A stretch of DNA of 64,000 nucleotides, from assembly GCF_016859285.1 (NCBI RefSeq), contig NC_053417.1:14070206-14134205 (forward strand), given 5' to 3'. The notes under the pieces were generated by a model, which was not told the origin of the DNA, searched no databases, and saw only the letters and a program-made list of their open reading frames with translations. Made by a program: the position numbers and the translations under genes. This document shows positions 39,101 to 42,100 of the stretch, piece after piece. The stretch's first letter is position 1. The number at the start of each line of letters is the position of its first letter. This DNA comes from Xiphias gladius (Eukaryota; Chordata; Actinopteri; Istiophoriformes; Xiphiidae).

Positions 39101-42100
39101 TGTAAATGTTAAATCAGCAAACAACATGATAGGCATACACATTAGTACATGCAATGACAAAAAGCTACATTCAAAAGCCCTATTAAAATTAATTTTGTAA
39201 TACCATTGGATTATTAATTCATCAGCCATGACAGGAAAGGACATACAGTTATTAATTTGCAAATTTAATTATCTCTCTATTGTATTTTTTTAACTTCATA
39301 ATACATCGCTTAGATTCAATTTTTATGATATTCAATTTTAAAATCGGTTTATTTATTAAATGATTGTAATCAAACTCAGTAGAAGTTTATAATGATTCCA
39401 TATTTCAGTGGCACTCTCCAGGCTCCATATTAGCACAGTCTCAACAGGAAACATACAGGTTATAGTAAAAACACAGAAAAACCTGAAGTAAAAAAGTAAA
39501 ACAATAAAAGGCAGTGTTGTCACTAATAGAGATTACTATCACCATTGAGATATTTAAAAGGAAAAAGATTTATTTTTGATTTTTTTGAGGACATAACTCA
39601 GAAAAACCAGCACTCAGTTGTATTTATGATTTGCAGGAGTTTTGAGAACAACTGGAACACGTACAAACTGCTGGCTCACATCAACCCCCCAGATGTTAAG
39701 GTGAGGACCATGCATTTTCTAAACCAGACTCTTATCACCGTCAGTAAAGATTATTCTGAATGAAAAAGGAATTAATAAATTAAATGTTTACACCAAAAGC
39801 CTCTTGTCCAATGACGGACTCTTTAACAATCTCCTTCTCTTAATGCCAGAGTAACATCAATGTGGCCATCATGAACATCGGAGCTCCCTGTGCTGGTATG
39901 AACGCTGCGGTGCGTGCAGCAGTCAGGATGGGCATCATCCAGGGTCACACCATGTTGGCTGTCCATGACGGCTTTGACGGTCTGGCTCAAGGACAGGTAA
40001 CTGTAGATTTCCCCGCCTTTGTTAAGATTTGATGACATTTTTAGAATGAGTTGAAAAAAAGATGTTTTGTCATCTTGAGCCAAGGAAGCCCGGAAAAAAA
40101 ATAATCCCATGTTTACACCTTATGGTTCAAGATTTATGAGCCCAAATGTGAAGTTGTTTAGAAATGGCCACGTGGCCTGCAGCTGTAAAAACTAGAAATC
40201 ACTTGTTCCCATTGGCCCATAGACCAACTCCACACCAAATTCCACAAATTCCAATTTTATTATTACAAGTATTGGTAACAGGGGTGATATATATGGTAAA
40301 TTAATAAAAATAAATTAAATGTTTACACCAAAAGCCTCTTCTCCAATGACGGACTCTTTAACAATCTCCTTCTCTTAATGCCAGAGTAACATCAATGTGG
40401 CCATCATGAACATCGGAGCTCCCTGTGCTGGTATGAACGCTGCGGTGCGTGCAGCAGTCAGGATGGGCATCATCCAGGGTCACACCATGTTGGCTGTCCA
40501 TGACGGCTTTGACGGTCTGGCTCAAGGACAGGTAACTGTAGATTTCCCCGCCTTTGTTAAGATTTGATGACATTTTTAGAATGAGTTGAAAAAAAGATGT
40601 TTTGTCATCTTGAGCCAAGGAAGCCCGGAAAAAAAATAATCCCATGTTTACACCTTATGGTTCAAGATTTATGAGCCCAAATGTGAAGTTGTTTAGAAAT
40701 GGCCACGTGGCCTGCAGCTGTAAAAACTAGAAATCACTTGTTCCCATTGGCCCATAGACCAACTCCACACCAAATTCCACAAATTCCAATTTTATTATTA
40801 CAAGTATTGGTAACAGGGGTGATATTTATGGTAAATTAATAAATTAATGCTTTTATTCGAGCATCATCCAGCCAAAGGTGCCCAGCCCACGTCGGCTTAC
40901 AAGACACTACTTACACATTGCACAAAAAAGAACAAAAGAACTAAGCAAGCAAAACACATGGTACTGTATCCATAGTGTCAAAACATACAGTAGTAGTATC
41001 AGATGATCTAAATAAAGTAGACATACACTGCTCTCATACATTGACAGTATGCCTTTACTGAGCACAAATAAAACCTCTGTAATCTGGTCAAGTCATAATG
41101 ATAACACAGTATGTTTTCAGTTTTGGTTTGCTTAATATTTCTTCTGAACATTCTGTCTTTATCAAGTTCATCAGTCGTGCATGTTTTAGTTTTTGGTATG
41201 TAACATTTTCTTTTGCTGCAGATTGAGCCCATCACCTGGACTACAGTTAGTGGCTGGACTGGAAAGGGAGGCTCAGTGTTGGGCACCAAGAGGTGAAACA
41301 TTAGTTGATATCCTTTTTTTTTTTTTTTCAGTGGCACAGCTTTATTATAAATAAAAACTGACTTTTGTCATAAGACTACAAAGCTTTTCACTGTGTTATT
41401 CGCCTCTGTTTAATAAAGAACTCTACCAGCTAAAATATTGGAGGAAATCAGCAAGAACATCACCAGGTTCAATATCCACGCTTTGGTGATCATTGGTGGA
41501 TTTGAGGTAACACGCGACAGCCAGTCCTGTCCCTTAAAACCAGAAGTTATGTGTAAATGTTGGCTGACCTTTCTCTCAGCCTCAATGATGAATTCACCAG
41601 TTATATGAACACAAAAAAATTATGTTCATCTTTTCCCCCCGCTGCAGGCCTATGTGGGAGGCCTGGAGCTGGTTCAGGCCAGAGAGAAATATGAAGAGAT
41701 GTGCATTCCCATGGTTGTTATCCCCGCCACCGTCTCCAACAACGTCCCTGGCTCCGACTTCAGCATTGGCGCTGACACTGCCCTCAACACCATCACCTCT
41801 GTCAGTGCCGTAACAGCAGATACGAACACAGACGTACATATTTATAACACAATCAGGAGCTAAACACATTTCTGGTATGTTTCTCTGCAGACCTGTGACA
41901 GGATCAAGCAGTCTGCAGCAGGGACCAAGCGCCGTGTGTTCATCGTTGAGACTATGGGTGGATACTGCGGCTACTTGGCCACCATGGCTGGTTTGGCTGC
42001 TGGGGCCGACGCTGCCTACATCTTTGAGGAAAAATTCAACATTAAAGACCTGGAGGTGAGCTGGTCATGGAAGAACAGGACCTGTTTGTCCAGTTTTCAG

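Follow-up and report, generated by a model that had tools for sequence, protein, structure and literature searches.

A probable young tandem duplication of coding exon 13 within pfkm of Xiphias gladius

Coding exon 13 of the phosphofructokinase gene pfkm appears twice in succession in the 64-kb stretch of DNA that we analyzed (the window, to which all positions refer). The question that this locus raises is whether the doubling is real DNA of the sequenced animal or a product of assembly and, if it is real, how it arose and what it would do to the transcript and to the enzyme. The window belongs to contig C18 of an assembly of 690.8 Mb in 1,298 contigs.

The doubled exon and its place in pfkm

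The pfkm coding region occupies positions 30114–43621 of the plus strand, from start to stop codon, and the gene model comprises 22 coding exons, to which the second copy of exon 13 is added; apart from this doubling, the gene is intact in the model. The introns are GT-AG throughout, with the exception of intron 8 (GC-AG), which in the model begins at 37753 with GCAAGC. Two transposase pieces, which we read as being of the Tc1/mariner kind, were also observed: one in intron 2 of pfkm, on the minus strand (32162–32473; HTH_Tnp_Tc3_2, E = 4.3e-17), and the other downstream of the gene on the plus strand (45608–45784), where the match to DDE_3 fell below the curated cut-off (E = 8.2e-6).

The doubled segment is a unit of 535 bp, which is the exact period of the repeat, and its two copies lie head-to-tail on the plus strand at 39774–40308 and 40309–40843. 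Each unit consists of 76 bp of intron, the 147 nt of exon 13 and 312 bp of intron. Direct comparison revealed 533 identical positions out of 535 and no indels; the mismatches are G at 39806 versus C at 40341, and A at 40291 versus T at 40826, and exon 13 and its splice sites do not differ between the copies. On the plus strand, the first exon copy (39850–39996, phase 0-0) was located by the gene model and by a match to the PFK domain, and the second, of the same sequence, lies at 40385–40531 in the model. The 388-nt GT-AG intron between them (39997–40384, plus strand) is defined by the ends and splice sites of the two exon copies. The original prediction had described a perfect duplication spanning 39771–40840. 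The repeat exists, but its true ends are displaced three bases to the right, and perfection holds for the exon and its splice sites and not for the unit as a whole. An exon together with its intronic flanks is thus found doubled head-to-tail inside a single gene, which is what characterizes a tandem exon duplication.

Within the window, the unit was the only direct repeat of at least 60 bp (20-bp seed) reported; it is missing from the output of Tandem Repeats Finder because the longest period there was 500. The idea that the unit is a repeat element was rejected, since its matches at an E value of 1e-3 were confined to the pfkm locus among 52 records and a search of the genome, which skips common words, gave one matching place. 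The 52 records (363,932 bases in total, with overlapping loci counted repeatedly and the pfkm locus included) were also scanned for direct repeats of high identity spaced by 100–4,000 bp; besides the pfkm unit, which was whole in 5 records, one other was detected, in a sample too small to give a rate of such repeats. This other repeat is a tandem array on contig C21 (L049:2782–5375) that repeats about every 1.28 kb; its copies share about 97% identity, differ by indels as well, and include at least part of a third.

In the gene model, the inclusion of either copy of exon 13, of both or of neither leaves the frame open to a common stop codon, and the predicted proteins have 780 aa with either copy, 829 aa with both and 731 aa with neither. 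The frame-keeping 147-bp exon of phase 0-0 that had been proposed beforehand was therefore reproduced, as were, exactly, the lengths of 780 and 829 aa given for one and both copies. The affected segment was also rightly placed in the C-terminal half: in a sequence search of the PDB the best matches were muscle-type PFK (4omt, followed by 3o8l), and residues 4–49 of the 49 repeated residues aligned with residues 402–447 of 4omt, at the start of the C-terminal half. Judging from the PFK family, the repeated residues would form a strand, a loop, a helix and a strand.

Ends of the unit, origin of the copies and a possible assembly artefact

A 14-bp direct repeat, AATTAATAAATTAA, matches exactly at the left (39770–39783) and right (40834–40847) outer ends of the duplication on the plus strand, and these are its only two occurrences in the window. 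At the internal junction (40299–40318, plus strand), sequence comparison revealed the 14-mer with its AATAAA doubled, amounting to 20 bp. Outside the duplication, at spacings of 480–580 bp, matching runs of at least 14 were found in 0 of 6,235,740 position pairs (3,956,170 from positions 1–39700 and 2,279,570 from positions 40901–64000), runs of at least 12 numbered 2 and those of at least 10 numbered 18; as the motif is AT-only and was chosen post hoc, this control serves as a guide and not as a formal test. Short repeats at the ends, together with a small doubled stretch at the junction, are the expected traces of slippage during repair or replication. The end repeat and the doubled hexamer, considered post hoc, look like a scar of this sort and unlike a join of haplotypes. 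Most likely, slippage during repair or replication, between two AT-rich copies of the 14-mer flanking the segment, would have generated the 535-bp tandem copy and left the 6-bp doubling at the internal junction, and it is from these marks that we infer the mechanism of origin. For comparison, PMC8355091 describes experiments, in which the overhangs measured about 50 bp, where tandem duplications produced by polymerase-theta end joining were larger than the usual small ones and showed microhomology far more frequently.

Counted inward, the two mismatches are at base 33 from the left end of the unit and at base 18 from its right end. Calculated post hoc, the probability that two random differences would both fall that near to an end is 0.015, and that one would do so at each end, 0.008. 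Positions 40291 and 40341, which flank the internal junction, are no more than 50 bp apart, and both differences may be junction-side mutations, a reading that is likewise post hoc. Given their positions near the unit ends, the differences need not be allelic, and if they are junction-side mutations they would be uninformative on haplotypes. The earlier statement was that they look like allelic divergence; their number would fit an ordinary allelic level. With 2 differences in 535 bases, the event appears to be recent; if both are ordinary substitutions, the point estimates of its age lie between about 0.2 and 1.3 million years, with wide limits, for assumed rates between 2e-9 and 1e-8 per site per year.

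The same two differences in 535 bp, being compatible with ordinary allelic divergence, would be expected if the assembler had placed two haplotypes, or a copy that it failed to collapse, one after the other, in which case no chromosome would carry the duplication. Half depth, gaps between copies, discordant pairs and single-copy k-mers are described as marks of false duplication by Ko et al. (PMC9516828), who also report gap-free cases and some false copies that are joined by sequence without read support. Several observations argue against such an artefact at pfkm. The window contains no N, so there is no assembly gap between the copies, and the 14-bp end repeat and the doubling of the junction hexamer would, judged post hoc, be unexpected of a haplotype join. 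In addition, searches of the assembly uncovered no other allele-like place: the doubled segment had its one matching place (very common words being skipped), and the 2.6 kb downstream of the unit had one full-length match place (40 of 119 candidates scored). None of the other 45 matches to this downstream region was longer than 309 bp; they comprised exons of PFK paralogs and scattered short pieces, some of which reached 96% identity over 47 bp. These searches, which used the doubled segment and the downstream 2.6 kb, gave no sign of a single-copy allele on another contig. A false duplication from two haplotypes, which the original prediction had regarded as the main alternative, is in light of the missing gap, the missing second place and the marks at ends and junction less likely than was thought, and we consider it improbable.

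We favor the reading that the sequenced animal would truly carry the duplication, on one chromosome or on both. One version of this reading, which does not compete with it, is that the animal is heterozygous, with the duplication on one chromosome and a single-copy allele that lies outside the assembly. The very low divergence of the unit copies is consistent with heterozygosity, and with one copy of the locus in the assembly a second allele would be invisible; it would also account for the survival of a possibly harmful duplication. PMC9516828 reports a genuine tandem duplication that was confined to one allele, had haploid depth and lay within one contig. The sequence, however, offers nothing that distinguishes heterozygosity from homozygosity, and we give this version somewhat less than an even chance. 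In sum, the locus probably carries a young tandem exon duplication that is real and possibly heterozygous.

Exons of PFK genes were detected on five contigs of the assembly (C5, C14, C16, C18 and C21; 32 matches). The equivalent of exon 13, with which the C-terminal half begins, was seen once per locus in the PFK genes of C5, C14, C16 and C21, and the doubling is absent from the fetched loci of these four other genes, which covered 1.5 kb on each side of the match and were read in the forward frames for L001–L031 and on the reverse strand for L020, L027 and L031. The best matches to the downstream pfkm exons outside C18 were on C21, and we take the gene located there as a second, putative pfkm. 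Its exon 13, the one paralogous exon that was compared base by base, shares 111 of 147 bases with that of C18.

Splicing of two identical exons

Exons 9 and 10 of PKM are a glycolytic example of mutually exclusive tandem exons. The pfkm copies could likewise be functional alternative exons, spliced in a mutually exclusive manner as a regulated switch, like other tandemly duplicated exons. They are neighbors of similar length and the same phase, as mutually exclusive exons are, and predictors of such exons search for equal length, phase and splice sites in a tandem arrangement (PMC5740500). According to the same source, some human mutually exclusive exons are set apart by a distance of less than 50 bp between donor and branch point, by U2/U12 incompatibility or by a frameshift. 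None of these devices was found at pfkm. The middle intron measures 388 nt, which, with the branch point taken as near its 3' end, leaves no steric interference. By eye, both copies have the same GT-AG sites, so that the four sites are ordinary and compatible, and the joint inclusion of two exons of 147 nt, a multiple of three, gives an open frame of 829 aa.

Competing pairing was considered as well, and PMC9013439 describes that doubling one arm of a stem-loop creates such a competition. For four pairs of segments from the unit and its flanking introns, the fractions of shuffles that paired as strongly were 0.73, 0.10, 0.53 and 0.90 (30 to 100 shuffles), and for the two intronic parts within the unit the fraction was 0.40 (mononucleotide shuffles, n = 100, 60, 60, 60 and 30 for the five segment pairs). 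In this limited search, pairing between the unit and its flanks did not clearly exceed that of shuffles. The lack of simple exclusion devices is weak evidence, because 484 of 629 human clusters also need other mechanisms, such as RNA-protein interactions or competing RNA structures (PMC5740500), and in this the pfkm exons resemble most human clusters. Against a switch stands the fact that both protein products would be identical, so there is nothing to choose, and identical exons would leave protein regulators little to choose between. Regulated exclusion finds no support in these results, and we regard it as very improbable. The resemblance to known mutually exclusive exons extends to homologous neighbors of equal length and phase (PMC5740500), but the pfkm exon copies are undiverged and have none of the simple exclusion devices tested.

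With identical splice sites and no device that forces a choice, double inclusion is therefore the plain expectation, and we expect it to be the predominant outcome at pfkm. Most transcripts of the duplicated allele would include both copies and encode the 829-aa protein, and the normal enzyme of 780 aa would be regained when one copy is occasionally skipped. Duplications of dystrophin exon 44 or 45 in patients offer a comparison: as in pfkm, one exon is repeated in one gene, and PMC1931584 reports no built-in choice of copy in the part that concerns us. In untreated muscle cells from these patients skipping of a single exon was low (PMC1931584), which we read as double inclusion being the main product. 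In contrast to the dystrophin duplications, the length of the pfkm exon is divisible by three, and the frame is kept when both copies are included; the gene and the species are also different, and there is no known phenotype.

Consequences for the enzyme and meaning of the duplication

The 829-aa protein would carry a repeated element at the start of its C-terminal half. Such an enzyme may misfold; alternatively, the second copy may occupy the normal position in the fold and the first may extend the linker that joins the two halves. Inserting 49 more residues into a conserved fold would probably damage the enzyme, and a fixed duplication in which both copies are constitutively included is for that reason less plausible. 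As the 829-aa form is likely harmful, we therefore suspect either heterozygosity or tolerance through a second gene, and the putative pfkm-like gene on C21, in which exon 13 was seen once, may buffer any loss. The human counterpart of pfkm underlies a muscle glycogen storage disease (PMC3875906).

The doubling probably represents a known kind of event, a recent intragenic tandem duplication of a single exon; a published case of exon duplication in a phosphofructokinase was not found among the matches listed in our literature search. It shares with the false exon gains of assemblies (PMC9516828) a near-identical exon repeated within a gene and differences at the allelic level, but unlike them it lacks a gap and has a microhomology-like scar at its ends and junction. 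Taken as a whole, a local and recent 535-bp duplication that was made by a slip, is real on at least one chromosome and is mostly spliced with double inclusion is the best explanation, and one that we hold with moderate confidence. There is as yet no sign of a function for the doubled exon. It is doubtful, though conceivable, that a young and possibly fixed duplication is tolerated, either because the 829-aa PFKM is made and works, with the second copy filling the fold and the first lengthening the linker, or because the identical exons act as insurance for splicing.

If the duplication is heterozygous or false, it would mainly be a caution for gene annotation. If it is real, it would be a tandem exon duplication caught at birth, with copies that have not yet diverged, and would allow a direct test of how two identical in-frame exons are spliced and of how a conserved fold deals with a repeated element. 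If it is also tolerated, through a working 829-aa enzyme or as splicing insurance, the locus may offer a snapshot of the beginnings of alternative exons.
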